Shown: piece by piece, positions 17,339 to 63,915 of the stretch
Numbering within the stretch: the first letter of the stretch is position 1
Layout: the number at the start of each line of letters is the position of its first letter
DNA from: Zygnema cylindricum
Lineage: Eukaryota; Streptophyta; Zygnematophyceae; Zygnematales; Zygnemataceae
Assembly: GCA_037447655.1 (NCBI GenBank)
Contig: JBBHKE010002445.1
Location: forward strand, 520,969 to 584,968
DNA: 64,000 nucleotides
Reading direction: 5' to 3'
Position numbers and translations under genes: made by a program
The notes under the pieces: generated by a model
Told to the model about the DNA's origin: nothing
The model's database searches: none
What the model saw: the letters and a program-made list of their open reading frames with translations, nothing else

Positions 17339-17465
17339 TGTCAAAGGACATTTAGCGCCGGTTTAGTCTGTACCCGTCATTCCATACGGCGGTCCCGTCT
17401 AGGTCTTGTCAGTACCTTGGTTTTGTTAAAGGTCATTTAGCGTCGGTTAACTTAATCTCATTGTC
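17339..17465 (+). mobile_element. Copia-C 3' LTR, truncated
   Basis: TGTCAAAGGACATTTAGCG starts right after the polypurine tract. The sequence matches 29404-29530 (including GTCCGTACC-type and AAAGGTCATTTAGC words). It is cut at about 17465 by the minus-strand copia-B fragment. Confidence 0.75.
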
Positions 17466-25476: not shown

Positions 25477-26987
25477 CTAATTCCCACTCGACGGGGTCTC
25501 GCAAAGGTACGAATCTCGCGGATCGGAAGTACCAAAGCCGTACCGTAACCTTTCTATATCGGCGGTAAATGTAGATCTCCACGAACCTACAAATACAGTA
25601 GATTGCATACCAACAGTCTTTTCTAACTCTATTTCAAAAAGCTCCCTCATGACACGGTTGGGTTGTTTTAAAGGAACCGCCCACTTTTTTTCTTCCCATG
25701 GTTCACTTTTGAGTCGAACCAATCGAACTTCTCGAAATCCCTCGGGAGTCAGATGTCTTGAGATATAAGCCAACTGGGATGAAAAAAAGAGAGTGAAAAA
25801 GTTGATACAGATATTGGTATGAGTATATGTTCTAAACCGATATTGATGGAGATAGGAAAAAAAACGCATATGTACAGCTTTTTAGGTGTGAAAATAGCCC
25901 AGAAAACCCCAAAAACTCTAAAAAACCTAGTACAAAGATTTACCATAAGAAAGATGAGCACAGATCTTCAACTTATTATATGAAGTCTTATATATATTAA
26001 ATACACTCGTTTTGTGATTTCTTATTCTCTTGTATCGAGTTTCTTTATGACAAGAAAAAAAAGCAATATTCCCACAGGTAGTAAGAATCCTTTCAAAACC
26101 CCCATTCAATTAACGGCCATTTAATTAACCACCATTTAATTACTTCCTTTGACAATCTTGACTGTTCATTGGAATTTAAAAAAATCCTCCACCAACCCAC
26201 CAACATCCCTTGTAATGAAAATAAATTGGGTGAACTTCCACAATACCTCTTCAGCATTCGTATTTGTCGCGAGGAAAACGTCACTTATATTGAAAGCAAC
26301 AAGTTTCGATTTTATACAATCGACCGATTCTTCAATCGATAAATAACACTTTTTGTCTCCATATTGAGCACAAGCTTCTTTGAAGTCGCCTCGACGAAGA
26401 TGTACCGCCATATACTTTCTTCTTCCAAAAAATTCCTCTTCAAATCCTTTTCCCGATTTGAGAACAGAAGAGCCCGGCTTAACTCCAACATTCGAAAAGC
26501 ATTCATTGGACCGTAAAATCGGGACATCAAACATGTTTTCCGATTTCAGTTGGTTGTAAAAAAACCGGCCCATATACAAAACGTCTCCTGGAGCATTTCC
26601 GTACAACTCCTTAAGCTCTTCAATAGTGAGTTCACAAGCTGGTTTTTCCAACATTCGAGGCTCTGAAACCAATTCTGAAAAGGTTACATTCTTCCAAAGT
26701 TTAAAATATTGTTCCAAAGGTGCTGAAAAATCTTTGATCGGACATCCCAATTCGTTCATACATAAAACTTGATCGATAGTTACATTTCGACCGTACGTTT
26801 CCTTATATTCTTGAAAGGTCATTATTGAGTTTTTTCCGTAACATCTTCGAACGTGGTAAATATCGAAAAGGTATTCTCGATGATAAGCGTGTTTTATTTC
26901 ACTCCGGTGAAAATTGACAAGTAAAGTACGATTAAGGACACTTGCATATTTCAAAGCGTTCAAAAGACAAAAAATGCGATTGCTCAC
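25477..26987 (-). CDS. O-fucosyltransferase-like protein, catalytic exons (join 26987-26247, 25773-25477)
   Basis: Two exons join in phase 0 across a canonical GT-AG intron (25774-26246, 473 bp; donor GAG|GTATTG, acceptor with a long pyrimidine tract ...CATCCCAG|TTG). The upstream exon (247 codons) opens at an acceptor ...TTCCAG|GTG. Its V-S-N-R-I-F-C-L-L-N-A-L-K-Y-A..L-N-R-T-L block is the start of the GT-B-type O-FucT domain. H-L-R-R-G-D (residues 196-201 of that exon) is the GDP-fucose/catalytic Arg motif. The junction reads DVFLATNTNAEE|LAYISRHL. The last exon (98 codons, TGA/TAA-type end at 25477) carries VFVGSWRSTFTADIERLR, the C-terminal signature. Four N-X-S/T sites fit a Golgi/ER lumenal enzyme transferring fucose from GDP-fucose. 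No stops or frameshifts. The exact acceptor substrate is unknown. The N-terminus is treated separately (36489-36770). Confidence 0.85.
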
Positions 26988-32582: not shown

Positions 32583-33886
32583 ATGTCTGACAATCAAATG
32601 CGAGAGTATTTGGAGAATTTCATGCGTCGAATTGATGAGAAATTCTCGGCCGTGGATAGGAGGTTTGATGAATTAACTCACGGTGATCCGGATCCCGATC
32701 CGGATGGAGATGATTCCGATGATACTGATGAGGAGGCTAAGAAAGTGAAAGATAAGAGGGGGAAACTTAAGCTTGATGACGATTCCGATTTAGAAGAAGA
32801 TAGTCAAGGAGGAGTGGAAGTGTTTCAGATGCCCAGAAAGACCGTCGTATTCAATGGATCGAATTACCCTTCGTGGAAGAAATATATTCGAGCTCAATTG
32901 ATTTTGAGAGGCCTTTGGAAGGTCGTCAATGGAGAAGAGAAAATGCCGGTTGGAGATGCTAAGGCTCGTCGTTTGTGGAAGCGAAAGAATCTTGCGGCCA
33001 TCACCGGATTAATGCAAACGTGTTCGGTGTTCGTGAATGATCATTTCCTCACGCATAGCACCGCACACGGATGTTGGAAGGCATTGGAATCCCAATTTGA
33101 GAGGGGAATCCAAAATAAAGGGCAATACATGTTCTCCGATTTCATGCAATTTAAAATGAAATCCAACAAATCTTTCGACGATGCCGTGAGGAGATTCAAT
33201 ATTATTGTGGAGGAACTTCTTAACAATGGCAGAGTGATCACGGAGGAGGACAAAGTAACCGGATTTTTGAATGCATAACCGGATAAGTGGATCCACCTCA
33301 AGGAGATTTTACCCGCGAGGGAATATAACACCTACGAGTTTATTGTGAATTATTTAAAGATGGCGGAGAGTAATCGTGTTAGCTCTTCAAAGGGCTCTTT
33401 GGGCACGGGATCCTTGAATGTGACCGCTCCCGAATTCGCGGATTTACATTATTTCCATGGAAGAGGGGGTGGAAAAGGAGGAGGTCCGAGAGGTCGTGGA
33501 AAATGGCTTGATAGGGGCGGAAATTCGAGACCTCGGTCCGCCCAGAATGATAATAGCAACGTCTTGTGTTTCCGTTGCAACCGGCCCGGTCATTTTCCGG
33601 CTTCGTGTCCGAAAAAGGAGAGAGAATGCTTCAATTGTGGGAAACTAGGCCACACGAGCCAACAATGCTACTCTAAATTTAGTAGCGGAGGAGTAAGAGG
33701 CGGTCACAGTTTTGGAGGTCGCGGTCGTGGACGTGATAGTGGTCGTGGTCGTGGACGCTATGGCGGCCATGGCGGCAACCATGGAAATTTCGTTGACTTG
33801 GGAAATTTTGAAGGAGACGAAGGAGGACAAACGTTCACTTGTCTCCACCTCTCTATTCATTCATTAAGTGAACTAAGTGACGCACG
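32583..33886 (+). pseudogene. Copia-B gag with two zinc knuckles and an RGG-like tail
   Basis: From ATG 32583: an N-terminal helical region (REYLENFMRRIDEKFSAVD), an Asp-rich stretch, then the UBN2-like Gag core (NYPSWKKYIRAQLILRGLWK ... WKALESQFERGIQNKGQYMFSDF). A nonsense codon TAA at 33276-33278 interrupts it; the minus-strand copy at 17.5-19.3 kb has TTA there. Downstream are two CCHC knuckles, CFRCNRPGHFPASC and CFNCGKLGHTSQQC (33570-33665), then Gly/Arg-rich repeats. Apart from the nonsense codon the frame is open, so this copy is younger than copia-A1. Confidence 0.85.
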
Positions 33887-34328
33887 CGAAAAGGAGTGGA
33901 TTATTGACACGGGAGCGCCTCACCACGTGTGTACGGACGCTACACTTTTTGACGACATGCGCTCACTTACCGTACCAAAATTAATTACGGTCGCAAGTGG
34001 ACAAACGATTACGGTTGGTAAAGTGGGTACCGTTCGTTTAAATTTACCCACATGGGACCGTTTTGGAAATGAAACTATTTCGGAGGCACGATTATTGAAC
34101 GTCTTGTTTATTCCGGAAGGTTCCGTCAACTTGTTAAGCGTACCTCAAATTCAGCGCGCCGGTGGTAGGGTAGTCGCTACGGGCGATTCGGCGATTCATA
34201 TTTATCGCGCCGACGGCAAATTAATCGGCGAAGGCGAAGTAACCAATTCAATGCATAGTCGACATTTATGGAGGGGACCGAGGAAGAATGCTACTTCCAC
34301 GGGTATCCTAAATCAAATCTCGGAATGA
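33887..34328 (+). pseudogene. Copia-B protease
   Basis: EWIIDTGAPHHVCTDATLFDD (about 33893-33958) is the active-site segment with D-T-G-A-P; the usual residue after Ala is Ser or Thr. LLNVLFIPEGSVNLLSVPQI follows, as in copia proteases. The frame ends at TGA 34326-34328 just before the pre-integrase domain. Confidence 0.8.
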
Positions 34329-35640
34329 AAGGGAGATTTAACGTTATGGCACCATCGGATGTGTCATACATCCGAAGGAAATTTGAGGAAAATGATAAAA
34401 ACTGCATGTGTGAGAGGATTAGATCTTGCTACCGGCAAAAAAGTAAATGGGTGTGATGGATGTAGTCAAGGACGACAAATTCGGAAATCACATCCAACGA
34501 AGGATGTGAAATTTCGGGCTCAACATCCTTTGGAGCTTGTCCACGTTGATCTATGTGGACAAATTAAGCCGGAAAGCCTTGGAGGAAATCGATATATTAT
34601 GGTCATCGTTGATGATTACTCGAGATTTTTGTGGGTTCGATTATTGAAGAGGAAATCGGATGCTCTTCAAACTTTTATTGAGTGGCATGCATTTGCCGAA
34701 AGACAATGCGAACGGAAGTTGAAAGCCATTCGTTCGGATAATGGAGGCGAATTTATTGCATTTGAGAGGTATAGTTAGGAGAAAGGAATTACCCAACCAT
34801 TTACTTCACCTTATTCTCCGGAATCAAATGGAGTTGCCGAAAGGAAAAATAGGACCTTACAAGAAATGGTGAGGGCGATGGTGCATTCGGCCGGTCAAAG
34901 TATCTCATTATGGGGAGATGCCATCCTCACGGCCAATTACATTTGTAATCGGAGACTAACTTCGGTTTCCGGTGACAAAACACCATTCGAATTACTTTAT
35001 GGGCGAAAACCGGCTCTCCATCATCTCCGAATTTGGGGATGTCGTGCTACGGTGTATGTGGATCAAGTGAAAAGGAATGGGAAATTTGCGGCTAGAAGTT
35101 GGCCCGGAATTTTCGTGAGCTATAGCACGAAAGGAAATCTTTATCGTGTATTTGATCCTGTTCGTCGTATTGTGGAAGAATCCCGAAATGTTAATTTTCA
35201 TGAAGGCTTAAAATCGGTTATCGAAAAATCGTCGGAATTGAAGAAAAATCTTGATTTTTATGAGGTAGGCGATGTTACCAATTTCCCAGAAATTGAGGAT
35301 TCGGATTCGGATGAGGAGCCGAAACCCATTGTCAACATCAAGAAGGGAAAATCAAATGTTGATTCACGATCGGAGAAATTGGACATTGACATTGATTTTC
35401 GGAGTAATGTGAGCCGAAATTCCAAAATGTCGACGGAAAGTCAAAAATCTTCGAGTTCAATCGAATGTGGACGAGGAGGAGAAGATTGTGGAACAAGTTC
35501 CGGTCCTTAGACGGAGTACTGGAGAAAAGCGAGGAAAGAAACCGAATCGGCTTTCTTATGACAAAATTGGTGGAGAGAATTCCAATTCCCATTATTTCGT
35601 CTCCGATGCGAAGGAGACGGAATTCCTTTTATAGCAATTA
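34329..35640 (+). pseudogene. Copia-B integrase, one internal stop
   Basis: LWHHRMCHTSEGNLRKM...CDGCSQG gives the HHCC motif. The catalytic triad is complete: HVDLCGQI (Asp), AIRSDNGGEF (Asp), SPESNGVAERKNRTLQEM (Glu), but TAG at 34776-34778 separates the second Asp from the Glu. The C-terminal region (FELLYGRKPALHHLRIWGC) is followed by an acidic linker with NFPEIEDSDSDEEPKP. The frame closes at 35508-35510. A second frame continues toward RT. Confidence 0.85.
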
Positions 35641-44461: not shown

Positions 44462-45460
44462 TGTTGAAATCACTAGATTTAGGAGGTATTTTGTAGGTCT
44501 TAATAGATTAAATGTAAAAGGAAAGCATAGGCAGTCTGCCTCCACCTCCTCCCTCTAGCCCTCAGACTTGTTGTACTCACTGAAGAAAAGTTAAGGAGGT
44601 GGAGCCATGTCTACCTAGCTCCATTGGCGAGGCTAAAGAGTGACGTAAGTCACTCTTAACAAAAAGGTAGAGTCCGGCAGGACTCGAAACTCTGAGCGGC
44701 TGAGAGAGGCGTAGTCGTTAACACTAACCGGTCTATTGTAGGAGTTCGTTAGACTACATAGGGTTTGAATGGTATTTAAACATTGCTTAGGAACTTTAAT
44801 CTTATTAAAGGAATTACAAAAAGCACATAGAGACTAGTTGGAATATGGTGCGAACAAAACCCGCACAAAACAAATGCACCAGACATTTGTTTTAACGACT
44901 AGTATTAGAAGCCAGTTTGGATCAGATGGCACGCATCATCGTCGTGAACTTAGAATAACCGTTTTGGTGGCTTTTCAGGCGAGGCATGACGTGGCGCCAC
45001 ATGGCAAGATAACATTGGTAAATGGGAGTCCCAAGTGCACGAGGACAAGTTCGAAGGAGACAGACTTCCACTCCATGACCTTGTCGTACACACGCCGTAC
45101 AGAAAAGACAACGACTATAGTGCCATTCTGTACTTTACAGTCTTTTGATTGGTTTATACATCAGTAGATAGGGGTTTTAAGAGGGGTTTAGGACTTAGAG
45201 GATTGAGGAGGAATTCGCATCTCTCCCAATAAGCATGTATAAATATTGGCATCTTTGCCACTTCAAAACTTATGGCCTAGTTGGGCGTTTTCAGTGATTT
45301 TTTTTTGCTGAGGACTCAAGGGAGTCCAAACATCACATGTGTGCAGCCAGATTTTCTTTTGCCTGCTTGGATAGCAGTTGTCCTAGTTGAAAAGGGGTTA
45401 GTCAAAAACTACCAAGAGGCTTCCTAAATTCTGCAGCCCAATGGGAGACACAAAATTGCA
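44462..45460 (+). mobile_element. Copia-A LTR d
   Basis: Starts TGTTGAAATC after ATAACGGGAG and ends AAAATTGCA. It is closest to LTR e (51144-52131). Landmarks: TTTTGTAGGTCT, CCATGTCTACC, hairpin AGAGTGAC-GTAA-GTCACTCT (44637-44656), tRNA-like unit, GTGGCGCCACATGG, GTAC block, GATTGG, TATAAATA (45237), TGGCATCTTTGCCA (45247-45260). Confidence 0.85.
44661..44740 (-). promoter_or_regulatory. Antisense tRNA-like Pol III-type unit in LTR d (class-I-like)
   Basis: Minus strand: A-box region ACCGGTTAGTG, 37 nt, B-box GTTTCGAGTCC (one mismatch to the consensus), 14 nt, TTTTT (44661-44665). Confidence 0.6.
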
Positions 45461-48771: not shown

Positions 48772-49284
48772 AGCCGTACGTAATTAATCAACTCCCTCTA
48801 TTAATGTGAGTGTACCAACAGTCTACACTAATAATGAAAACACACGACAAAACATTATTACATATTTATAAGCCTTACGAATTCTGTCAAATGAATATGG
48901 ACCCTGCAAATTAAGTATCATGTGAAGGACGCGATTTTGTGTCCCTCACCAAAATGTCCAAACTGATGCCGCCGCCCTCCGTAGCTCCGGTGGTATCCAA
49001 TTCACCAAATGTCGACCGCCGTATTATGTTTCGTACGGCCAATTAATGTTTCGAACATTAATCATCGGATCGCTTCGCGATCCGCCGTACATTTCTTCGC
49101 GTCACTTGAAGTCCAATTCCCTACGTTCTAATAGTCTTAGTACTTAGTACGCAAGTTGCTATGACTGCGATGTGACCAGCACAGCATGGCCGCACAATAT
49201 CTTTTCCATACATGTTGCTATGGCTGCGGTGTGACCAGCGTAGAATGTGATATAGAGAGGACTAAAGGTTTCCAAAAGCCAACA
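48772..49284 (-). mobile_element. LTR-D copy, minus strand
   Basis: On the minus strand TGTTGGCTTTTGG starts at 49284, preceded by the purine run GTTTGGGGGAG. It contains twin hairpins ATTAATGTT-TCG-AACATTAAT (49042-49062) and CGGATCGC-TTC-GCGATCCG (49066-49084). The same region recurs at 57002-57514 with about 10% divergence up to 57303 and none visible after. Confidence 0.55.
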
Positions 49285-50449
49285 CTCCCCCAAACCTTTT
49301 GACTCTCTTAGCCATTGTGTCCACATTCCTCCCTTCTTCCCTTTTGTTCAACGGTCACTCAATTAATTCCGTGCATCCCAAAACAATTAGTATCATTACT
49401 CCCCCAACTTGCAAATCCAATCGAACCTCCACTGTAAATCTCGATAGCATAACAAATCTAAACCACGTACTTCACTCTCGAAATATTCTGTACGCACGAT
49501 ATGTGGCGTACTTACGAAACCCATTTTCAAAAACTAACACTCCCTCGAAAATCTAGTGTCGTGCATCTGGAATAAATTTAAACGCATGATAGCTACTATA
49601 ATTGAAGTGTCAGATTAAGGCATTATAGGAGCATAGCAGCATAGCAACAAAGAAGCATAGCAATGCCACATAGCAGCATAGCAGCATAGCAACATAGCAG
49701 CATAGCAACATAGCAGCATAGCAGTATAGCAATGCCACATAGCAGCATAGTAACATAGCAACATAGCAGGATGTGTTCAACGTCTCTATTGCTCCAGCTC
49801 CCTACAGCCATCTCTTCCAAAATTTTGTCCTTCCTAGACACACCACCGCTTCCCCTGCCTCTTTCTAATTCCTCAAAATAAAACTCTATTTTTCAATCAA
49901 TTGTAGACCAATCAAAAACCAAAAATCAAAATTCCACGAATATTACCGATTGTTAATGGTAGTCACTTCTGTAGAGTTACTTTTCACGCCGTCTTCTTTT
50001 GACCACTTTCGGAATACTTTTTCCTCTACGATTTTTCCTTTGAATTCTATTTCCTTTCTTTGTTTTCTTACTGAATTCTAATGTTATTTTCATTTTCGCA
50101 ATTTTATTTTCTTCTTCGGTATTATAAACTTCTTCACATACTCCAATTATCTGAACCCTTCTTCTTTCCTTCTTCTACCGTATTATAAAATTCTTCACTT
50201 ACTCCACTTTCCTAAACACTTTTCCTTTCTCCCTCTCTAAGTGTATTCATCTCCTCCGCAAATTATAATTTGTTTCAACTTCCAAATCCCCTTCACTTCC
50301 TCCTTGTATTCCTACTTCAATAACCACTTCCTCCTACGAAACTTTATCACTCACCAGTCTATCGTTGAAAAATGTGACAAGTGATATAGAGAGGACTAAA
50401 GGTTTCTAAAAGCCAACACTTTCTTCCCCCCCCCTCTCCTTGTTTCCGT
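49285..50449 (-). other. Stacked LTR starts (minus) and minisatellite
   Basis: On the minus strand, LTR-like starts preceded by purine tracts occur at 50418 (GGGGGGGGAAGAAAG then TGTTGGCTTTTAG), 49539 (TTTT-CGAGGGAG then TGTTAG) and 49284. The 50418 and 49284 starts share about 38 bp, so they are one family (LTR-D). Between them lie the GCATAGCA minisatellite and AT-rich sequence (49800-50380) without recognisable genes. Confidence 0.45.
49629..49770. repeat. Minisatellite GCATAGCA(A/G)CATAGCA
   Basis: Roughly 14 units of CATAGCAGCATAGCAACATAGCA, with TGCCACATAGCAG interruptions repeated twice. An identical copy is at 57859-58000. The word resembles GCAGCATAGCAACG in the gypsy LTRs. Confidence 0.85.
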
Positions 50450-51114
50450 TCCTAATGCTTCCGAGTCCTTTCAACTTGTTCTTTTTCAATTTTTTTTTGC
50501 TAGATGACAAGTTCGGGTTTGAGTTTTCTAAAGCAGCATTTCCACCCATGACCAGTTTATTGACAATTTAGGCAATTGTACAGAAAAACTCTGTCATCCG
50601 CCCCCATGGCTGGTTTTGATGTGCTATCAGCCACCTGTTTTCCCTTAAGCTTCCGCAAAGCTTGAAGTTTAGTTTGTTCCTCATTGTTCAAGGGTGTTTC
50701 CTTGGTGAATCCTATAAAATTCATTCTAGCCTTGTCGGTTATAGCTTTCTCACTTACTTTGTTGTGAAATAAGTGGTCCTACAACTTCATGGCAACCAGT
50801 GAGATGTCCTTGGCCGAGGGATTGATATCATGGATTGACTAGCTTGCAATCTAATTCTCCAAAGCAGCCCGCCCTGTGGGTCCGAACGAATTTTGGATAG
50901 CAATGTAATATTTAGTGGCCATGGCTAGTAGATTGATAGTTGAAAGTTTGGTCTTCTGACAGAGGGTGAAATAAGGGTTGAAAAGAGTTTGCGGAGTCTC
51001 CTTTTTTAAGCACTTGAATTCTTTGAATTCCTTGATTGCATACTCATTTCTCTCGGTGTTGAGAAGTCTCCATGCGTCCAGAAGTGTTGTGCAATGGGTA
51101 GGGTTGGCGACCAT
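50450..51114 (-). pseudogene. Gag-like ORF of the LTR-D element, minus strand (copy 1)
   Basis: From ATG 51114: DAWRLLNTERNEYAIKEFKEF, LKKETPQTLFNPYFTL and MATKYYIAIQNSFGPTGRAALEN, then a stop; beyond it KARMNFIGFTKETPLNNEEQTKLQALRKLKGKQ and a degenerate zinc knuckle C-L-N-C-Q-x-T-G-H-G-W-K-C-C near 50530. The purine tract and LTR-D start at 50418 lie just downstream, so most of Pol has been deleted. Identical at 58680-59344. Confidence 0.6.
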
Positions 51115-51143
51115 CCTGGTGGCAGTCTGGGGCGCTCGGACTG

Positions 51144-52131
51144 TGTTAAAATTGCTAGATTTATAGAGTATTTTCTAGGTCCAAATATATTAGTATAAAA
51201 TGAAAAAAAAGGGCGGACTGCCTGCCTCCACCTCCTCTCTCTAGCCACTATATTTGTTGTAGTTACTGAAAGATAGAGAGGATGGTTGAACAATGGCTGC
51301 CTTAGTTCAATAGGCAGGACTAAAGAGTGACTTATGTCACTCTCAACAAAAGGTAAAGTCCGGTAGGACTCGAACCTCAGACCGGTAGAGAACGCCGTAG
51401 ACGTTAGCTCTAACCAGTCTGTTGTAGAAGTATGTTAAGTTACATAGGGTGTGATTTGTACTTATAGTGTGTTACGTCCTCTAAACCGATTAACAAAAAA
51501 TTGAACATAAAGACATAGAACTATTAAAATACGATGCAAAAAGAATGAATTGAACATTTTTTTCGACGGATGAGATTTCATTTTGGTTTTTATCCAACGG
51601 CGCACATCATCGCAAAGATCCCTGAGTGGTCACTTTGGCTTTTTGTGACGTGGCATGACCTGGCGCCACGTGGAGAGATATTATTTGGGCTCGGGAATTT
51701 TGAGGAACTTACGGACCAGTAAAATGAGGGCACGCGTCCACGTAATAGCCTTGTCGTACATTGGACGTACAAAAGGTACACCGCCAGTACTACTTTTAAG
51801 TGCAGTACTGTAATATAACTGGTGCGTCCTTCAGTAGATAGGAGTTATTAGAGAGAATCAAGACTTATTGTTTTTTGGAAATACTGTCACCTCTCCCTTT
51901 GAGGGTTGTTATAAAATAGGCATCTTTGCCACCCCATAACATATCGGTTGGTTGGTCGTTTTTAGTGATTCTTTTTGCTACCGACTCAAAGGAGTGTAGG
52001 CTCCACAGGGGTGCAATTAAACTATTACTTTGCCTTCTTGGGCAGCAGTGGTTGTGGCATGAAGTGGGTTAGTTAAAAACAATCTAGAGGCTTCCTAAAC
52101 TCTGTAGTCCAATGGAGGACACATAATTGCA
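51144..52131 (+). mobile_element. Copia-A LTR e (5' LTR, copy 1)
   Basis: TGTTAAAATTG ... CATAATTGCA, followed directly by a primer-binding site. It contains TTTTCTAGGTCC, CAATGGCTGCC, hairpin AGAGTGAC-TTAT-GTCACTCT (51324-51343), tRNA-like unit, GGCGCCACGTGG (51663-51674), ATAAAATA and GGCATCTTTGCC (51919-51930). The copy at 59374-60361 looks identical. Confidence 0.85.
51348..51425 (-). promoter_or_regulatory. Antisense tRNA-like Pol III-type unit in LTR e (class-I-like)
   Basis: Minus strand: ACAGACTGGTTAGAGC (typical D-arm), 37 nt after GG to a perfect B-box GGTTCGAGTCC, 14 nt, TTTT (51348-51351). Duplicate at 59578-59655. The acceptor stem does not pair, so it is not a functional tRNA gene. 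Confidence 0.65.
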
Positions 52132-52146
52132 GGTTGTGGGCCCACC
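52132..52146 (+). promoter_or_regulatory. Copia-A primer-binding site (half initiator tRNA-Met), copy 1
   Basis: GGTTGTGGGCCCACC, one change from 4341-4355, adjacent to the LTR end. Copy 2 is at 60362-60376. Confidence 0.7.
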
Positions 52147-52195
52147 CTCTAGGGTGCTCACCTTCAATGGATTTAAGTTCATCTATTAGGAAGCC

Positions 52196-53129
52196 ATGAT
52201 GATGGGGGCTTTGTGCGAAAATCGATACTGGGGTATCGTCATTGGACAAGTGAAACATCCACCTTCGGGAACTCCACCACGATTTGTAAGAGTAAGGTTT
52301 CATGCGGCAGCGACTGCTTCAGCGTAGGAGGCACATGATGGGGAAAGCAGTGTGTCCGAAAAGGAGAAAGGGAAGGAGACGCCCCTCACTATTATTGCCA
52401 AGGCACCGAGAGCGGCGGTTGTGAAGACTGCGGAGAACGATACTCAAATGTGGGAAGACGTAAACATGACTGCCAACAACTTCATTCTAAGATACAACAC
52501 TCAAGCTTTTGACACCCCTCACCTTCACATTTACAAGGCCGAGGAGTTGTGGGTGAGTATGGTGGAGATCTATAGAGCAGGTACTATTCAGGAGCTCCAA
52601 TTGGTTGAGCAAAAGCTAGTGAGTTACACTTAGAAAGGAGGAAAGATGTTAGATTACTGTAATGATCTCTCTTGTTAGTATATAGAGATGGAAAGTGCCG
52701 GGTGGATAGGTACAATGAAGATGAAAGTTATCACTCTCATCATGAAATTACCAAACGAGTACAAGATCATAGTGTACCGAGTACAGGAAATGATTGATAG
52801 TTTATAGAAGTGGAATACACTAGTTTGGATGATACTTGTGCAGGAAAACACAATGGAGATTAGGAGAGGAGGAAAGAGCATTCAAGCTCTAACTGTAGGA
52901 GGGGACTGATGGGGGAAGGACCTGAAGAAACCGTACAAAGGGGAAAGGGATCACTCTGGAGAACCGTGGCCTCCAAACGTTCTTTGTCATTTCTACAAAA
53001 AGCCGGACACATCATAGCAGATTGTGTCAAGCTGTTGGAGCTGAGGCTCCAAGAGAGCGGAGCTGAGGCTCCAAGAGAGCCGTGCAGGGAATTCTTCTGG
53101 AGGGAAGAAGAAGGCACTTGTGGTCACAA
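52196..53129 (+). pseudogene. Copia-A gag, copy 1, truncated at the duplication edge
   Basis: From ATG 52196: MMMGALCENRYWGIVIGQ, a stop near 52327, then NDTQMWEDVNMTANNFILRYNTQAFD and LWVSMVEIYRAGTIQELQLVEQK (UBN2-like). Further stops at 52631, 52676 and 52805. The zinc knuckle region is degraded (CHFYKKPDTS). A 22-bp tandem duplication lies at 53037-53080. After 53129 the sequence is unrelated to copia. Confidence 0.85.
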
Positions 53130-53438: not shown

Positions 53439-54535
53439 TGTTAAAATGTGTGTATTTTCTAGGTCTGTATTTGTCTATGTTGAAAAGAAGTAATTAATAT
53501 TCACTTCCTAATTTAGACTCTAGAGTGAAGAGAGAGAGAGAGTCACCATGGCTGTCGCAATAGTCAGAAAGAAACAGGCAGACAGAATAGTAGATTGCCA
53601 AAATAGTGCACCAAATAGGATTTGAACCTAAGTCTGCAAGATATGACATAGTCGTATGCCTTAACCATTATAGCGTTTATGAAACGATATACGTGTTCAA
53701 ATCGTTATGTATTTAAAGTGTTACGCAAAACGTCACTTTCATTAAAACAGACCAAAATTGACGAAATAACATCTATAGTCAAACGACGCTCGCGGACGCA
53801 AATCTAACCGTGAAAAATACATGATCGGACGGACGTCGTCACCCCCGCCAAACCCGAAGGAATCTTTGGCGGCTTTCGAACATAGCGGCGCGCTATGCCA
53901 CGTGGCGCCACATCATTGGACGCCAGAAAGGATGGGAGGAGGAACGACAGCTCCCATATTGACAAGTGTCAACCAAAAGGCTATGTTGTACAATGGCCGT
54001 ACAAGAAGTACAATCGGCCACTGTACTTCGTGTACTATACACTGTACCTTCGTGTACTATACACTCTTTTGATTGGCCTAGGGTAGAGTAGGACGTAGTT
54101 GTGAGTAGGAGTTAAGGGACTTAGCGTGTTTAAGGCGCCTCTCTCCAGGTGACCTTTTGTATTTATAGGCCACCTTTGGCCAGCCATAACTTAATGCTCG
54201 GGTGAGCAAATTCAGTGATTCTTTTTGCTGCGGACTCAAGGGAGTCCAAGCTACACAGTGGTGTAGTCGGTGAGAGTCTTTGCGTGCCAGGGTGGCACTT
54301 ATTCAGTGGGAAAGTCAAAGTTGGGAATATTGTCCAAAACACATATTCAAGCTTTGCATTCTGTGGTGGAACTGAGCACACAAAAGGTCTTCTCTTCAAA
54401 AGGGTGAAGGTGTATTGGGGTTCTAATTGTCAAGGGATCATTCATTTGGGTTTATATCAACTTGGAGTCGGCACTATCTAGATAAGCTTCTTTTGGATCT
54501 GCGAATTCTGTGGGCAATGGAGCTCATAGAATTTC
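53439..54535 (+). mobile_element. Copia-A LTR f
   Basis: TGTTAAAATGTG ... GAATTTCA. Landmarks: TTTTCTAGGTCT, ACCATGGCTG, tRNA-like unit, CCACGTGGC (53898-53906), seven GTAC words between 53986 and 54062, GATTGG (54072), TATTTATA (54160-54167), GGCCACCTTTGGCC (54168-54181), TGCTC-GGGT-GAGCA and GACTC-AAGG-GAGTC hairpins. Its 3' part is close to LTR a. A solo or orphaned LTR. Confidence 0.85.
53600..53677 (-). promoter_or_regulatory. Antisense tRNA-like Pol III-type unit in LTR f (class-I-like)
   Basis: Minus strand: CGCTATAATGG, 36 nt, B-box GGTTCAAATCC (matches GGTTCRANYCC), 14 nt, TTTT (53600-53603). Confidence 0.65.
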
Positions 54536-55434
54536 AACTGTCAATAAATCAAACTAATCGTAAGCGTACACCTGAAAGTCAAGCAATCGTAAGCGTACAC
54601 TTGTCTGCAAATGCGACACATAAATTAAAGTGTCGAGACCCTGATTGACCACATAAAAATAAATATCACAATCAATTCTATTTTATTAATACACATAAGA
54701 CAAGACAATGTTGTTTCAAATATTTTGAAGTACACACAATCTCACAGAATCGTATGCTGAGTCATGCTGAGTCATGCTGAGTCACTCAGCGAAACTCCTT
54801 GATTTTCGTCAAAGAATCCGGGACGTCCAAAATATGATTCTTGTGAATGACGCGATTTCGCGTCCTCACTCTTGATAAATAGCGGCGGCCTTTGTCCGCC
54901 GTCCGTAACTCTTATTTGGCACCGTTGATGTCGTGCCGCGTGGTCACAAAAACCAAACAAAAATTCCACGCGAGTCGTCAAATATCCCACGACGTCGCGA
55001 AGTGAATCCACGTCCACTTGTCAACAATATCGTACAGCCAAATTTATTTCCGTACCGAGACCACGTACTTTGTCATAAATTCCGCCGGTCAAAACTAAAG
55101 TACACCTGTCAAATAAGACGCTCCGTACCGACGGCGTCTTTTTCCATAAATGCACCTGTCGCATTTTGATTTGTACGGCTGGCGTACATTTTCAAATACT
55201 TCGAATATTTCAAATCATCGTCGGATCGCTTCGCGATCCGCCGTCCATTTCCTAGCGCATTCCGCGCCACTCAATTTGTTCCTTATGTCCATTTAATTTC
55301 ACTCGCACACTTACTCCCCCGATCCACAAATCTCTTCAAATCTCCACAGTAGATCAGGTAAATATATATGCACGAAACGTCGCGTGCGCACCAAATTTCA
55401 CGTACGCACAAAACTAAATCTTCAAAAACAACAG
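54536..55434 (-). mobile_element. LTR-D-related sequence (probable, minus strand)
   Basis: Shares with 48772-49284 the block GACGCGATTT(C/T)G(C/T)GTCC, GGCGG-rich sequence and the hairpin CGGATCGC-TTC-GCGATCCG (55222-55240). It starts with two copies of CAATCGTAAGCGTACAC (54557 and 54586) and three ATGCTGAGTC repeats (54754-54783). The right edge abuts copia-A RNase H at about 55435. Confidence 0.5.
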
Positions 55435-55942: not shown

Positions 55943-57000
55943 TGTAGAAATTAATGGTCTTTATTAAAGTATTTTCTAGGTCTGAATAGAAATAAGAAAG
56001 AAGCCAAGGCAGTCTATCTCTAACTTCTCTCTCCAACTTCTCAAACTTGTCGCATTCACTGAGAAATTGGAGAAGGAGCTAGAGCCATGGCTACCTAGGC
56101 TATCCAGAGGTTTACGGAAAAATATATTTTAGTTAGGGGTTTAATTTACTAAAAGACATGTGCCGGCGACAGGATTTGATCCTGGTACGTGCCGGCCGGC
56201 AGACAACCGGTAGCCGGTAGCCTTAGCCGTTAAGTTTAGGAGTAGTGTTATGTATTATATGGTTTTATAATTACTTAAACATTTATACGTAGGATAGTTC
56301 ATTTAACTGTAACTGTTTACGGGAGACATATATCCAGTAAATGTAAAAGTACGGATTTTCGTACGGATAAGAAACCAATACCGCGCATTTAATTCTTTAG
56401 TGAAACGAATACCGCGCATGCATTTATTACGGCTAAGATTAAATGTGAATTTAATCGGACGGCCGAAATTAACGCCGAGATCGCGGAAGAGGATTTCGGT
56501 GGTTTGTGGTCATCGCCACATCGGATGACACGTGGCGGAATGACATTGGATCGCGGCATCTCCGAGGATTAAGGGAGCGAATCCGGACATACGACGTGTC
56601 GACATTTAGGCCATGTCATACAATGGCCGTACATAAAGTACACCGGCAGCTGTACTTTTGTGTACAAAACTAAATCTGATTGGCTCCGTACATCAGTAGA
56701 TAGAGTCTGTGAGAGAGATAGGACTTAGAAAAATTAGAAGATAGGACCCTCTCTCCCAAAGAGCGTCAGTACAAAAGGTCAACTTTGACCCTCCATAACT
56801 TACTGCTCAGGGGAGCAAATTCAGAGATTCTTTTTGCTATCGACTCAGGGGAGTCTTGTCTTCACATGGGTGAAGTTGGTTAAAGTTTTTGTCTGCTAGG
56901 GTGGCAGTTATTTTTGCTGAAACACAAAGGGGTCAGGGTTATCTTAGAGGCTTCTTGGAAGCTGTTCACTCTGAGGACTTATGGAGGTCTCAGAGTTTCA
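55943..57000 (+). mobile_element. Copia-A LTR g
   Basis: TGTAGAAATTAATGG ... CAGAGTTTCA after AAGGGGAG. Sister of LTR c. Landmarks: TTTTCTAGGTCT, CCATGGCTACC, tRNA-like unit, ACACGTGGC (56529-56537), GTAC block, GATTGG, GGTCAACTTTGACC (56777-56790) and the hairpins at 56804-56817 and 56842-56855. The duplicated unit begins right after it. Confidence 0.9.
56151..56240 (-). promoter_or_regulatory. Antisense tRNA-like Pol III-type unit in LTR g (class-II-like)
   Basis: Minus strand: TTAACGGCTAAGGC, 44 nt including the GC-rich variable-arm-like CTGCCGGCCGGC, B-box-like GGATCAAATCC flanked by a CAGG/CCTG stem, 17 nt, TTTT (56151-56154). Confidence 0.6.
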
Positions 57001-57303
57001 CAGCCGTACGTAATCAATCAAATACCTTTATTAATATGAGTGTACCAACAGTCTACACTAATAATTAAAACACAAGACAAAACATTGTTACATTTTTACA
57101 AGCCTTACAAATTCTGTCAAATGAATCTAGACCGTCCAAATTAAGTATCATGAGATGGACGCGATTTTGCGTCCCTCACCAAAATGTCCAAACTGATGCC
57201 GTCGCCGTCCGTAGCTCTGGTGACATCCAATTCACCAAATGTCGACCGCCGCATTATGTTTCGTACGGCCAATTAATGTTTCGAACATTAATCATCGGAT
57301 GCC
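57001..57303 (-). mobile_element. LTR-D copy at the start of duplication unit 2
   Basis: Matches 48771-49073 at about 90%. The TTC-loop hairpin is damaged here (CGGATGCC...). Identity with copy 1 becomes complete right after this point, which places a recombination joint near 57303. Confidence 0.6.
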
Positions 57304-58679
57304 TTCGCGATCCGCCGTACATTTCTTCGCGTCACTTGAAGTCCAATTCCCTACGTTCTAATAGTCTTAGTACTTAGTACGCAAGTTGCTATGACTGCGA
57401 TGTGACCAGCACAGCATGGCCGCACAATATCTTTTCCATACATGTTGCTATGGCTGCGGTGTGACCAGCGTAGAATGTGATATAGAGAGGACTAAAGGTT
57501 TCCAAAAGCCAACACTCCCCCAAACCTTTTGACTCTCTTAGCCATTGTGTCCACATTCCTCCCTTCTTCCCTTTTGTTCAACGGTCACTCAATTAATTCC
57601 GTGCATCCCAAAACAATTAGTATCATTACTCCCCCAACTTGCAAATCCAATCGAACCTCCACTGTAAATCTCGATAGCATAACAAATCTAAACCACGTAC
57701 TTCACTCTCGAAATATTCTGTACGCACGATATGTGGCGTACTTACGAAACCCATTTTCAAAAACTAACACTCCCTCGAAAATCTAGTGTCGTGCATCTGG
57801 AATAAATTTAAACGCATGATAGCTACTATAATTGAAGTGTCAGATTAAGGCATTATAGGAGCATAGCAGCATAGCAACAAAGAAGCATAGCAATGCCACA
57901 TAGCAGCATAGCAGCATAGCAACATAGCAGCATAGCAACATAGCAGCATAGCAGTATAGCAATGCCACATAGCAGCATAGTAACATAGCAACATAGCAGG
58001 ATGTGTTCAACGTCTCTATTGCTCCAGCTCCCTACAGCCATCTCTTCCAAAATTTTGTCCTTCCTAGACACACCACCGCTTCCCCTGCCTCTTTCTAATT
58101 CCTCAAAATAAAACTCTATTTTTCAATCAATTGTAGACCAATCAAAAACCAAAAATCAAAATTCCACGAATATTACCGATTGTTAATGGTAGTCACTTCT
58201 GTAGAGTTACTTTTCACGCCGTCTTCTTTTGACCACTTTCGGAATACTTTTTCCTCTACGATTTTTCCTTTGAATTCTATTTCCTTTCTTTGTTTTCTTA
58301 CTGAATTCTAATGTTATTTTCATTTTCGCAATTTTATTTTCTTCTTCGGTATTATAAACTTCTTCACATACTCCAATTATCTGAACCCTTCTTCTTTCCT
58401 TCTTCTACCGTATTATAAAATTCTTCACTTACTCCACTTTCCTAAACACTTTTCCTTTCTCCCTCTCTAAGTGTATTCATCTCCTCCGCAAATTATAATT
58501 TGTTTCAACTTCCAAATCCCCTTCACTTCCTCCTTGTATTCCTACTTCAATAACCACTTCCTCCTACGAAACTTTATCACTCACCAGTCTATCGTTGAAA
58601 AATGTGACAAGTGATATAGAGAGGACTAAAGGTTTCTAAAAGCCAACACTTTCTTCCCCCCCCCTCTCCTTGTTTCCGT

Positions 58680-59344
58680 TCCTAATGCTTCCGAGTCCTT
58701 TCAACTTGTTCTTTTTCAATTTTTTTTTGCTAGATGACAAGTTCGGGTTTGAGTTTTCTAAAGCAGCATTTCCACCCATGACCAGTTTATTGACAATTTA
58801 GGCAATTGTACAGAAAAACTCTGTCATCCGCCCCCATGGCTGGTTTTGATGTGCTATCAGCCACCTGTTTTCCCTTAAGCTTCCGCAAAGCTTGAAGTTT
58901 AGTTTGTTCCTCATTGTTCAAGGGTGTTTCCTTGGTGAATCCTATAAAATTCATTCTAGCCTTGTCGGTTATAGCTTTCTCACTTACTTTGTTGTGAAAT
59001 AAGTGGTCCTACAACTTCATGGCAACCAGTGAGATGTCCTTGGCCGAGGGATTGATATCATGGATTGACTAGCTTGCAATCTAATTCTCCAAAGCAGCCC
59101 GCCCTGTGGGTCCGAACGAATTTTGGATAGCAATGTAATATTTAGTGGCCATGGCTAGTAGATTGATAGTTGAAAGTTTGGTCTTCTGACAGAGGGTGAA
59201 ATAAGGGTTGAAAAGAGTTTGCGGAGTCTCCTTTTTTAAGCACTTGAATTCTTTGAATTCCTTGATTGCATACTCATTTCTCTCGGTGTTGAGAAGTCTC
59301 CATGCGTCCAGAAGTGTTGTGCAATGGGTAGGGTTGGCGACCAT
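58680..59344 (-). pseudogene. Gag-like ORF of the LTR-D element (copy 2)
   Basis: Identical to 50450-51114: same start, same first stop after AALEN, same degenerate knuckle. Confidence 0.6.
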
Positions 59345-59373
59345 CCTGGTGGCAGTCTGGGGCGCTCGGACTG

Positions 59374-60361
59374 TGTTAAAATTGCTAGATTTATAGAGTA
59401 TTTTCTAGGTCCAAATATATTAGTATAAAATGAAAAAAAAGGGCGGACTGCCTGCCTCCACCTCCTCTCTCTAGCCACTATATTTGTTGTAGTTACTGAA
59501 AGATAGAGAGGATGGTTGAACAATGGCTGCCTTAGTTCAATAGGCAGGACTAAAGAGTGACTTATGTCACTCTCAACAAAAGGTAAAGTCCGGTAGGACT
59601 CGAACCTCAGACCGGTAGAGAACGCCGTAGACGTTAGCTCTAACCAGTCTGTTGTAGAAGTATGTTAAGTTACATAGGGTGTGATTTGTACTTATAGTGT
59701 GTTACGTCCTCTAAACCGATTAACAAAAAATTGAACATAAAGACATAGAACTATTAAAATACGATGCAAAAAGAATGAATTGAACATTTTTTTCGACGGA
59801 TGAGATTTCATTTTGGTTTTTATCCAACGGCGCACATCATCGCAAAGATCCCTGAGTGGTCACTTTGGCTTTTTGTGACGTGGCATGACCTGGCGCCACG
59901 TGGAGAGATATTATTTGGGCTCGGGAATTTTGAGGAACTTACGGACCAGTAAAATGAGGGCACGCGTCCACGTAATAGCCTTGTCGTACATTGGACGTAC
60001 AAAAGGTACACCGCCAGTACTACTTTTAAGTGCAGTACTGTAATATAACTGGTGCGTCCTTCAGTAGATAGGAGTTATTAGAGAGAATCAAGACTTATTG
60101 TTTTTTGGAAATACTGTCACCTCTCCCTTTGAGGGTTGTTATAAAATAGGCATCTTTGCCACCCCATAACATATCGGTTGGTTGGTCGTTTTTAGTGATT
60201 CTTTTTGCTACCGACTCAAAGGAGTGTAGGCTCCACAGGGGTGCAATTAAACTATTACTTTGCCTTCTTGGGCAGCAGTGGTTGTGGCATGAAGTGGGTT
60301 AGTTAAAAACAATCTAGAGGCTTCCTAAACTCTGTAGTCCAATGGAGGACACATAATTGCA
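59374..60361 (+). mobile_element. Copia-A LTR e' (copy 2)
   Basis: Identical in appearance to 51144-52131, including hairpin, tRNA-like unit (59578-59655) and GGCATCTTTGCC (60149-60160). The two are duplicates of one LTR, not the 5' and 3' LTRs of one element. Confidence 0.85.
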
Positions 60362-60425
60362 GGTTGTGGGCCCACCCTCTAGGGTGCTCACCTTCAATGG
60401 ATTTAAGTTCATCTATTAGGAAGCC

Positions 60426-61595
60426 ATGATGATGGGGGCTTTGTGCGAAAATCGATACTGGGGTATCGTCATTGGACAAGTGAAACATCCACCTTCGGGA
60501 ACTCCACCACGATTTGTAAGAGTAAGGTTTCATGCGGCAGCGACTGCTTCAGCGTAGGAGGCACATGATGGGGAAAGCAGTGTGTCCGAAAAGGAGAAAG
60601 GGAAGGAGACGCCCCTCACTATTATTGCCAAGGCACCGAGAGCGGCGGTTGTGAAGACTGCGGAGAACGATACTCAAATGTGGGAAGACGTAAACATGAC
60701 TGCCAACAACTTCATTCTAAGATACAACACTCAAGCTTTTGACACCCCTCACCTTCACATTTACAAGGCCGAGGAGTTGTGGGTGAGTATGGTGGAGATC
60801 TATAGAGCAGGTACTATTCAGGAGCTCCAATTGGTTGAGCAAAAGCTAGTGAGTTACACTTAGAAAGGAGGAAAGATGTTAGATTACTGTAATGATCTCT
60901 CTTGTTAGTATATAGAGATGGAAAGTGCCGGGTGGATAGGTACAATGAAGATGAAAGTTATCACTCTCATCATGAAATTACCAAACGAGTACAAGATCAT
61001 AGTGTACCGAGTACAGGAAATGATTGATAGTTTATAGAAGTGGAATACACTAGTTTGGATGATACTTGTGCAGGAAAACACAATGGAGATTAGGAGAGGA
61101 GGAAAGAGCATTCAAGCTCTAACTGTAGGAGGGGACTGATGGGGGAAGGACCTGAAGAAACCGTACAAAGGGGAAAGGGATCACTCTGGAGAACCGTGGC
61201 CTCCAAACGTTCTTTGTCATTTCTACAAAAAGCCGGACACATCATAGCAGATTGTGTCAAGCTGTTGGAGCTGAGGCTCCAAGAGAGCGGAGCTGAGGCT
61301 CCAAGAGAGCCGTGCAGGGAATTCTTCTGGAGGGAAGAAGAAGGCACTTGTGGTCACAAAAGTGAAAGGAGAAACTAAAGACGAGTCATCCAAGGAGGAG
61401 GAAGGGAAGCTTCTTCTTGACGAGAGTCTGGAGGAGAAGGAGATCCCTCGGAAACACAAAAGTGCGCTCAAAGCAATTTGGGAAGCTCCACAAGAAGGAT
61501 GGATTATCGAATCAGGTGCATCCATGCATATGTGTTATGATAAGCATCTCTTTACTAACCAAAGAAAAATCCCTACTGCAGAGATAGACTAGGGA
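60426..61595 (+). pseudogene. Copia-A gag and protease start (copy 2)
   Basis: The same gag as 52196-53129, but past 61359 the copia frame continues: KVKGETKDESSKEEEGKLLLDESLE (acidic linker), then EGWIIESGASMHMCYDKHLF (protease active-site segment, D replaced by E in the D-S-G-A-S box). It stops at TAG 61590-61592 and ends at an LTR at 61623. This copy shows that Trp precedes the protease motif, so the TAG at 5467-5469 is a mutation. Confidence 0.85.
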
Positions 61596-61622
61596 GATGG
61601 GAAAGTGGTTGTAAAAAATAAT

Positions 61623-62470
61623 TGTTCTTTGATTTTTTTCTAGGTCTAAAATGAGTTGTAGAAAAGAGGTAATAAATATTTCACTTCTCCATTTAAGTTA
61701 TACTTTAAAGAGAGAGTGAGGATCAAACGCACGCCATGGCTGCCGCCATATTTAGAAAGTGGCAGATTTTGAAGTAGATGATATTATACCAAAATGTTGC
61801 CTACGTCAGGATTTGAACCTACGACCTCTAGATTCTCTATATCCGAGCGCCTTAACCATTAAAGCGCTACGAAACGATACACGTAACGGATTTCAAAGAT
61901 ATATAAACATTAACAAAACGGCTAATTAACACAAAATTAACGACGAAGAGGAACAATTCATGCACATACGCGAATCTGAACCGTGTAAAATATGTTTTGA
62001 TCCGACGGCCAACATTGTAGCCGCCACTTGAAGTGAGCTTTTGGCGGCATTCGGAGATAGCGTCACGCGGTGCCACGTAAGGCCGCATTATTTGATACCG
62101 GAGAAGATGGGAGGAGGAACCATGGCTCTTGATTTGAGAGGTGTTTCTTTGTAGACTATGTCGTACAATAGATGTACAATAAGTATATCGCCCATTGTAC
62201 CTTCTTGTACTATATAGTGTTCCTATTAGTCTAGGGTTTATTTGTAGGTAGTCGTGATTAGGCAGACCAAGACTTCGTGATATTTAGGTACCTCTCTCTA
62301 AGAGAGCTTGTAAATATAAAGGTCATCATTGACCAGCCATAACTTACTGCTCAAGGGAGCAAATTCGGAGATTCATTTTGCTAACGACTCAAGGGACTCT
62401 TGCCTTCATTAGGGTGAAAGTGGTTAGATTATTTGTTTGTCACGGTGACTGTTATTCTTGCTAATTCTTG
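61623..62470 (+). mobile_element. Copia-A LTR h
   Basis: TGTTCTTTGATTTTTTTCTAGGTCT, GCCATGGCTGCC, tRNA-like unit, TGCCACGTAAGG, GTAC words, TAAATATAAAGG (62311) and GGTCATCATTGACC (62321-62334), then the TGCTC-AAGG-GAGCA and GACTC hairpins. It starts without a polypurine tract directly after protease, so Pol was deleted. The right end fuses with LTR i. Confidence 0.8.
61791..61870 (-). promoter_or_regulatory. Antisense tRNA-like Pol III-type unit in LTR h (class-I-like)
   Basis: Minus strand: TAGCGC..TTTAATGG with GCGC/GCGC closing the D-arm, 36 nt, B-box GGTTCAAATCC, 14 nt, TTTT (61791-61794). Confidence 0.65.
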
Positions 62471-62479
62471 CTAACTGAC

Positions 62480-63250
62480 TTGTTAAGATTGGTAGATAAC
62501 CAAAATGCTGCCTTTAGCAGGATTTGAACCTGGGTCTACGGAGTACAATGTAGACGTACGCCTTATCCACTTAGGCGATAACAAAACGATACACGTATAT
62601 GGCTCGGTTATTAATTAAAGTGTTATCGAAACGTCACTTTGACTTAAACAGACCAAAATTGACAAAAAGGCATCTATAATCAAACGGCGCTCGCGGACGA
62701 GAATCTAACCGTGTAAAATATATGATAAGAAGGCATTCGTCGCCCCCGACGAACCCGAATGAATCTTAGGCGACTTCCAACAGCGCGACGCGCCTTACCA
62801 CGTGGCGACACACCATTGGACGTCGGGAAAGATGGGAGGAGGAACAATGGCTTCAAAGTTGACAAGTGTCAACCAAAAGGCCATGTTGTACAATGGTCGT
62901 ACAAGAAGTACAATCGCCCACTGTACCTTCTTGTACTATACACTCTTTTGATTGGCCTAAGGTAGAGTAGTAGGTAGTTATGAGTAGGAGTTAAGGGACT
63001 TAGCGTATTTGAGGCGCCTCTCTCTAGGTGACCTTTTGTATTTATAGGCCATCTTTGGCCAGCCATAACTTACTGTTCAAGGGAGCAAATTCAGTGATTC
63101 TTTTTGCGTTTAACTCAAGGGAGTCTTGTCCTCTCACGGGTGAGGGTCGTCAGAATATTTGTTTGCCTGGGCGGCACTTATTGAGTGAGAAAGTGAAAGT
63201 GGCAAATATTATCTTAGAGGCTTTACATAGGCTGCTAATTTTGTGGGTTA
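62480..63250 (+). mobile_element. Copia-A LTR i, 5'-truncated
   Basis: Starts within U3 just left of its tRNA-like unit. Carries CCACGTGGC (62799-62807), seven-plus GTAC words, GATTGGCC, TATTTATA (63039) and GGCCATCTTTGGCC (63047-63060), then TGTTC-AAGG-GAGCA. Its 3' end is degenerate (CTTAGAGGCTTTACATAGG). Confidence 0.75.
62502..62580 (-). promoter_or_regulatory. Antisense tRNA-like Pol III-type unit in LTR i (class-I-like, best preserved)
   Basis: Minus strand: A-box TCGCCTAAGTGG closed by CGCC/GGCG (D-stem), an anticodon-arm-like stem GTCTAC/GTAGAC, B-box GGTTCAAATCC within a CAGG/CCTG T-stem, 14 nt, TTTT (62502-62505). D-, anticodon- and T-arms are recognisable; the acceptor stem is not. 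Confidence 0.7.
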
Positions 63251-63299
63251 ATGCAGACCACAAAATTTTAGTTTTCATATTTTTTGGAGAAATCGCCAT

Positions 63300-63915
63300 C
63301 GAATGATTGTCTGCCAAGTGGCATTGAATGTGCTTTCGACCATTAATCGCCAAAGCGTGCATTCCGCGATCTCAGTCGTACATCGACTGTCTGATTTCAA
63401 CCGGTTTTCAATCATAGCCGTCATAAATAATTGCGCGGTATTTGTTTCACATTTGAAACAAATGCAAGATATCCTTTTTGAGACATTCTACAACCCGTAC
63501 AATACAAACTTTATCTATGTCCTAATTTACCGTTAAATGAATTAGTCTACATGTTAACATTTATATATTTAACAAACCCTATAGCATTTAGCACTGGTCC
63601 TAGACTAATAAGTTAAAGCTACCAGTTACCGGCAACTTCACAGACGGTAGGTACCACGATCAAATCATGGGTCCGTCAAGTTACTTTTTAGTAAACCTAC
63701 CAAAATTTTGCCTTTCTTCCTCTCAATTGCAAAGGCAGCCATGGGAATAGCTCCCTCTCAAACTTTCAATGACAGCGACAAGTGTAGGAGTTGAAAAGAG
63801 GAGTTAGAGGTAGACTGCCTTTGCTTCTTTTATGCACTTTATCTTTATAAGTTTAAAAATAGAAATAAAAAAAAGAACCTTTAGTTTCTATAGTATCCCG
63901 GTCTTGAGATTTCAA
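63300..63915 (-). mobile_element. Copia-A LTR j, minus strand, 3'-truncated
   Basis: The reverse complement starts TTGAAATCTC near 63915 and includes CCATGGCTGCC, the tRNA-like unit and the GTTTCA..TGAAACAAATACCGCG block of LTR c (9126-9151). It is cut near 63300. Opposite orientation to all other copia-A LTRs here. Confidence 0.75.
63603..63689 (+). promoter_or_regulatory. tRNA-like Pol III-type unit in LTR j (class-II-like)
   Basis: Plus strand, antisense to its LTR: AATAAGTTAAAGC, GATCAAATCA in the B-box position, 17 nt, TTTTT (63685-63689). Closest to LTR a. Eroded. Confidence 0.5.

Follow-up and report, generated by a model that had tools for sequence, protein, structure and literature searches.

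Why does a retrotransposon driven by Pol II keep a divergent Pol III unit? The question is posed by a copia family of Zygnema, the long terminal repeats (LTRs) of which carry in antisense a tRNA-like unit (here also called the module) with an A-box, a B-box and a T-run. The window that we analysed is the whole stretch of 64,000 nucleotides, a piece of contig C1848, and the searches covered the 352,776,454 bases of its genome, the single genome examined. The features of the window to which we refer are listed here, beginning with LTR i and its unit.

62486 to 63268, + strand: LTR i, which lacks its start and begins at the module (nhmmer LTR model positions 164-963)
62502 to 62505, - strand: T4 run of unit i, Pol III terminator-like (sequence; between-cluster identity of the T4 columns 0.93)
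62520 to 62530, - strand: B-box of unit i, GGTTCAAATCC, 14 nt before the T-run (sequence, consensus scan)
62560 to 62578, - strand: A-box or D-loop-like block of unit i (sequence, scan, between-cluster identity)
61610 to 62485, + strand: LTR h (sequence and nhmmer model)
61791 to 61870, - strand: tRNA-like unit of LTR h, with T-run at 61791-61794 and B-box at 61809-61819 (sequence, nhmmer, scan)
548 to 634, - strand: degenerate unit of LTR a, the LTR being at about 442-1373 (homology only; shuffle p 0.23)
8886 to 8972, - strand: unit of LTR b, the LTR being at 8686-9722 (alignment, nhmmer, scan)
44661 to 44740, - strand: unit of LTR c, the LTR being at 44462-45460 (alignment, nhmmer, scan)
51348 to 51425, - strand: unit of LTR d, the LTR being at 51144-52131 (alignment, nhmmer, scan)
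59578 to 59655, - strand: unit of the duplicate of LTR d, the LTR being at 59374-60361 (duplication, nhmmer, scan)
53600 to 53677, - strand: unit of LTR e, the LTR being at about 53441-54389 (alignment, nhmmer, scan)
56151 to 56240, - strand: unit of LTR f, the LTR being at 55943-57000 (alignment, nhmmer, scan)
63603 to 63689, + strand: degenerate unit of the inverted LTR g, the LTR match being on the minus strand at 63835-63293 (homology only; shuffle p 0.27)
4341 to 4355, + strand: primer-binding site (PBS) GGTTATGGGCCCACC, directly after an LTR end, of half tRNA-iMet type
7152 to 7745, + strand: copia reverse transcriptase (RT), PF07727, upstream of LTR b
56000 to 56103, - strand: imperfect hairpin between the start of LTR f and its module (z -6.4 against shuffles)

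In a MAFFT alignment all nine window LTRs have the antisense module at one homologous place, and an nhmmer model made from the nine modules matches ten unit places at E <= 5e-14, with the next match in the window at E=0.83. All ten units that the first-pass annotation had placed are thus present, the one at 59578 being a duplicate of that at 51348. Both strands of the 64 kb were also scanned with a consensus (A-box TRGYNNARNNG, B-box GGTTCRANTCC and T4, score at least 14 of 17), which gives 10 matches, all on the minus strand, comprising eight LTR units and two other places. Against 300 dinucleotide shuffles per LTR, seven of the nine LTRs reach p <= 0.01, and the summed score of the nine is 131, as compared with 35.8 for the shuffles (sd 15.8, maximum 86). 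LTRs a and g taken singly are no better than their dinucleotide shuffles, and the module there rests on homology.

The units have a B-box and a terminator at tRNA-like spacing, as in a type 2 Pol III promoter, with a and g again weak. The A-box is the weak part: of its 7 informative letters, LTRs c, e, h and i match 6-7, and a, b, d, f and g match 5. With regard to spacing, the T-run had been described as exactly 14 nt after the B-box in d, e, f, h and i; this holds for d, e, h and i, and also for c, but in f the distance is 17 nt, as it is in a, b and g. A gap of 36-37 nt between A-box and B-box, claimed for the same five LTRs, was recovered in i only (37 nt), the gaps in the scan ranging from 25 to 45 nt, although the scan may take the D-loop instead of the canonical place.

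The LTRs belong to the Ty1/copia group, as there are RVT_2 and gag domains, LTR pairs, a PBS, a polypurine tract (PPT) and 5-bp target site duplications (TSDs). RVT_2 (PF07727) is present in the window, and copia gag (PF14223) together with RVT_2 in genome copy L030. Genome copies of the module sit inside LTRs with PBS, PPT and, at some sites, 5-bp duplications such as CTCCA (L040) and GTAAG (L002). A purine tract precedes the TG with which the LTRs begin, and the last two letters are CA in most of them; in elements GGTTATGGGCCCACC comes next, as it does after the 5' LTRs of genome copies. We take GGTTATGGGCCCACC to be complementary to the anticodon arm of tRNA-iMet and the family to use half-tRNA-Met priming. 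The unit itself was also considered as a primer for reverse transcription and is an unlikely one, no complementarity with the PBS being seen by eye.

LTRs of the family are about 0.9-1.06 kb long and the elements, with their gag and RT domains, about 6 kb. The i-type genome copies have LTRs of about 900 bp, the LTR pairs of six such elements being 88-95% identical, and in the element copy inspected the reading frames are broken. Relatives of the RT have 45-62% identity among the matches listed (120 of 7863). Measured from its start, the 904-bp LTR of L029 has the T-run at 133 bp and a TATA-like box at 673 bp, and the unit thus points away from the presumed Pol II start.

Several other features of the window may be recorded here. 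Positions 48772-53129 and 57002-61359 form a direct duplication of 4.36 kb with 99.4% identity, which holds LTR d twice and may be a segmental duplication or an assembly effect. Just after LTRs a and e (1380-1521 and 54387-54536) there is a second match to roughly the final 140 bp of the LTR. A second copia-like sequence at 17456-19260 has an inverted copy at 32907-34711, 88% identical, with zinc knuckle, Pol_BBD and SH3 domains at 33345-35510. An open reading frame of 273 aa at 26166-26987 (- strand) is without a Pfam match of its own, but the one relative found (66% identity) bears PF10250, presumably an O-fucosyltransferase domain.

Is the module a property of the family or of these nine LTRs? 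Two genome searches were made with the 3' half of the LTR only (4545 and 5261 candidates at first look), and 38 new places were fetched with their upstream sequence; copies found with a query that includes the module were not counted for presence. From the first search 18 of 39 non-window places were used, the other 21 having already been found by the module-including query, and leaving these out works against presence. From the second, 20 of the first 21 non-window places were used, one near a contig start being omitted and lower-ranked ones not fetched, and the 38 LTRs are accordingly high-ranking matches, not a random sample. The module is present in 31 of these 38 LTRs picked without using it, in L068 and L073 over 66-67 of the 84 model positions. 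As for the others, L064 has a broken piece of the module, L056 has U3 on both sides with the module region missing, and in five the U3 is truncated or interrupted before the module. In addition an LTR match at L032 618-918 spans the module place without a module call, there being a weak match there (E=0.00095). The module is a property of the copia family, present in most of the LTRs sampled. That every LTR with an intact U3 carries the unit, as first proposed, is nearly but not quite so, with L056 and L064 as the exceptions and five LTRs lacking a contiguous U3.

With regard to the tRNA likeness, the units had been held not to be tRNAs, and we agree. ARAGORN finds no tRNA gene in the window, and Rfam has no tRNA there at curated cut-offs, nor at E <= 10 in 40000-64000. 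Neither cloverleaf nor acceptor stem at tRNA gene standard was found, and the best module copy, L081, scores 20.3 bits against a cut-off of 29. Of 14 loci scanned, this is the one in which the whole module is matched in antisense by the Rfam tRNA model, which mildly supports a tRNA origin of the module. A working tRNA was rejected as an explanation, there being no ARAGORN or Rfam call.

The antisense RNA could still be the functional product, either by acting against the U3 of the genomic RNA or as a Pol III hairpin or microRNA precursor of the kind found in foamy virus LTRs. Foamy viruses do express Pol III-directed miRNAs (PMC7693620), and the two folded units of c/d type beat their shuffles (z -4.8 in d and -3.7 in L054), as does f mildly (z -2.9). 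LTRs b and f also have a stable hairpin beyond the T-run (b 8731-8832, z -5.4; f z -6.4). However, only a 4-bp T-stem is predicted by the consensus fold across subfamilies, the e, h and i units fold at about shuffle level (z -1.6 to -0.4), and the spacers, which are the body of the RNA, change fastest. Nor are compensatory changes in 19 c/d sequences above the shuffle range, the observed number being reached in 86 of 500 shuffles. The tRNA fold of the module is not kept; a kept RNA fold was rejected on the same T-stem result, the two-hairpin form of c/d being without covariation support, and we think it improbable that the RNA is what the family uses. The hairpin between LTR start and module has z -0.9 to -2.0 in four c/d copies and is absent from the one i copy folded; its Rfam matches are weak and miRNA-like, and its consensus fold is weak.

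There is also a Helenus-like TRIM at L013:181-692 (G000:C1382), in the tail part of a copia-family LTR. Both of its 223-bp LTR copies contain a tRNA-like cloverleaf in sense, named 'Pyl cta' by ARAGORN in either copy, and the Rfam tRNA model scores 56.6 bits at 276-348. It also has by eye a TGGTATCAAAGCC-type PBS, a G-run PPT and the TSD AGTTC.

Are the boxes kept better than their surroundings? For this we used 81 LTRs in eight clusters, a set that includes copies found with the module query and that was left after removal of duplicates, of matches shorter than about 60 model positions and of matches lying too close to the end of a locus. Column identity between clusters is highest in the T-run (0.93), followed by the B-box (0.74) and the A/D-loop block (0.68). 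The two module spacers have 0.465 and 0.475, the 60 bp that precede the module 0.41, the whole upstream flank 0.53 and the whole downstream flank 0.51. The canonical A-box position, at 0.51, is no better kept than the flanks. T4 is kept in 74 of the 81 copies, and at least 9 of the 11 B-box letters in 76. When the box template was slid over 473 positions (mean 0.522, sd 0.065), two positions, its own included, reached the observed 0.745, and the best distant place in the LTR, at 0.729, comes near it.

A module in use can be told from a fossil SINE in a simple way, by setting the old changes in its boxes, spacers and flanks against the recent ones. Old changes per column, by parsimony, number 2.0 in the boxes, 3.4 in the flanks (p=2e-4) and 4.35 in the spacers (p=4e-5), and recent tip changes 3.24, 3.65 (p=0.29) and 5.30 (p=0.006) respectively. 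The old/recent contrast separates boxes from flanks (Fisher OR 1.51, p=0.025); it is not significant for boxes against spacers (OR 1.33, p=0.19), and the cruder split of all internal branches against all tips gives p=0.12 for boxes against flanks.

It was recognised at the outset that boxes decaying at the neutral rate would point to chance or to an old insertion, and the answer differs with age. In the young i subfamily (27 LTRs) there is no box excess, the boxes varying like the rest of the LTR, but on old branches the boxes have changed less than the flanks. The alternative that has to be weighed here is a single SINE or tRNA pseudogene that inserted into the ancestral U3 long ago and has since been passive, with boxes that only seem to be kept through low mutability, alignment and easy recognition. 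The i subfamily, where the module shows no excess of conservation over the remaining LTR, is what a passive fossil would give, as are the equal numbers of recent changes in boxes and flanks, the degenerate boxes of a and g, and the L056 copy without the module region. As the boxes have fewer recent changes than the spacers too, part of the contrast between boxes and spacers may be due to mutability or alignment. The fossil does not so readily account for the old branches, with their fewer changes at boxes than at flanks, nor for the comparison between subfamilies, where the module spacers are near the level of the adjoining flank but the T-run, B-box and A/D-loop are not. In addition the T-run, which is the best kept part, lies outside any tRNA body. 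We regard the passive fossil as unlikely, while taking it seriously, and the evidence for a probable constraint on boxes and terminator in active lineages as moderate, not overwhelming.

A further possibility is that some ordinary transcription factor of Pol II binds the conserved motifs, the likeness to a tRNA being incidental. Other LTR blocks are conserved equally or better, the B-box window ranking 57th of 841 in the nine-LTR alignment, with other short blocks above it. However the occurrence of B-box, A/D-loop and T-run together in one order and spacing argues against this explanation, as does the sub-threshold match of the whole Rfam tRNA model to L081, and it seems to us quite improbable.

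The module had also been suggested as an integration signal, and family elements that target Pol III units might use it as a landing pad. Five family elements are nested in family LTRs (L009:483, L040:6816, L058:about 132, L079:about 643 and L032:1295). Those of L009 and L040 inserted at the same place, model position 121-122, and the module of the L040 host LTR is about 60 bp from the insertion (for L009 that part was not fetched), while the L064 module is broken in the middle by other sequence. However the L058 and L079 insertions are at model position 534 and that of L032 at 795, so that all five are at three places outside the module, and no tRNA gene was called by ARAGORN in the 58 sequences of flank, among which several are double fetches of one insertion. 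This evidence being small and mixed, we have dropped the landing pad and with it the suggested integration signal, and consider the idea very improbable indeed. The recurrence of nested insertions at 121-122 (near CCATGG) and at 534 may reflect a site preference, the cases being few.

We tentatively favour a captured tRNA or SINE promoter, kept as a TFIIIC/Pol III site that would act in cis, and put this at a little short of an even chance. An ancestor of the half-tRNA-Met primed copia family would have gained a Pol III unit of tRNA derivation, in all probability a SINE or tRNA pseudogene. This would have come to lie in U3 in antisense, at about 130-210 bp from the LTR start, with the TATA-like box about 500 bp further on. 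Selection may then have kept the B-box, the A/D-loop block and the T-run in active lineages as the RNA body and tRNA fold were lost. TFIIIC and Pol III would bind and produce, or have produced, a short transcript directed away from the Pol II promoter and terminating within U3, and by analogy the occupied site could serve as a boundary or road-block, holding the LTR promoter open and stopping incoming read-through. TFIIIC binds box B through its tauB part (PMC5911963). The better conservation of boxes and T-run than of the body suggests that binding, and transcription that terminates, matter more than the product, and a unit in antisense in a copia LTR is unable to make genomic RNA. The antisense placement thus excludes a role in making template RNA of the Helenus type and favours a role in cis, which is the most likely mode of action. 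The fuller proposal, that a gag-pol copia family keeps the antisense Pol III unit in its LTR for its own regulation, although much of the U3 around it has been lost to divergence, with Pol III/TFIIIC occupancy as a built-in boundary or road-block and the sequence of the RNA irrelevant, is possible, although we would sooner bet against it than on it.

The layout had been thought to be without a described counterpart among LTR families, but Pol III units are known from the LTRs of two TRIMs, Helenus and Cassandra (PMC10886601). Among the literature matches listed, Helenus, Ajax and Cassandra are LTR elements with small RNA genes, and all three are non-autonomous. As in our family, Helenus LTRs keep tRNA-derived A and B boxes within them and the RNA is mostly not a working tRNA; most fungal Helenus families have a PBS of the anticodon-loop type, and insertion of a SINE into an LTR has been proposed as their origin (PMC10886601). 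In contrast Helenus elements are non-autonomous, 311-1263 bp long, with a unit thought to make their own template RNA (PMC10886601), whereas the Zygnema family has elements of about 6 kb with gag and RT domains, LTRs of about 0.9-1.06 kb and the unit in antisense. Judged as Helenus (TRIMp3), the family does have a tRNA-like sequence in the LTR, for which Rfam gives a match below threshold in one locus out of 14, but its elements are not short, non-autonomous and non-coding. The LTRs of Cassandra likewise contain a small-RNA-gene promoter for Pol III, but this promoter is of 5S type, the element is non-autonomous and transcription has been shown (PMC10886601). Half-tRNA-Met primers are found in plants in the Osser, Bryco and Gymco-II copia lineages, which resemble our family in this PBS, and for which a tRNA-like U3 unit is not mentioned in the available text of PMC6317226. 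Among the literature matches listed we found no autonomous copia element with an antisense tRNA-like unit, subscription papers and Repbase being outside their coverage. However, according to Kojima (2024, PMC10886601), 'not a few LTRs' among those of Repbase are similar to part of a tRNA, and unreported cases may thus exist.

Two other systems are comparable in part. We know of no tRNA-like unit in the Pol III miRNA system of foamy viruses. In these viruses Pol III-directed RNAs come from full-length LTR retroelements, in one simian foamy virus from the LTR itself, but the products are hairpin miRNAs and the hosts animals (PMC7693620, PMC7104284). The other is an antisense MIR in Polr3e, occupied by Pol III in antisense to a Pol II unit and acting on its host gene by transcriptional interference, although it is a single intronic SINE in a mammalian gene and not in an LTR (PMC5358760).

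The units of TRIMs are thought to make template RNA, a role that the antisense placement in the copia family rules out, and our analysis carries the occurrence of Pol III promoters in LTRs beyond the tiny, non-autonomous TRIMs, to a copia family with gag and pol. MIR, like the source that we propose for the Zygnema module, is a tRNA-derived unit. If the favoured reading is true, this would to our knowledge be the first autonomous LTR retrotransposon to use Pol III/TFIIIC occupancy in antisense.
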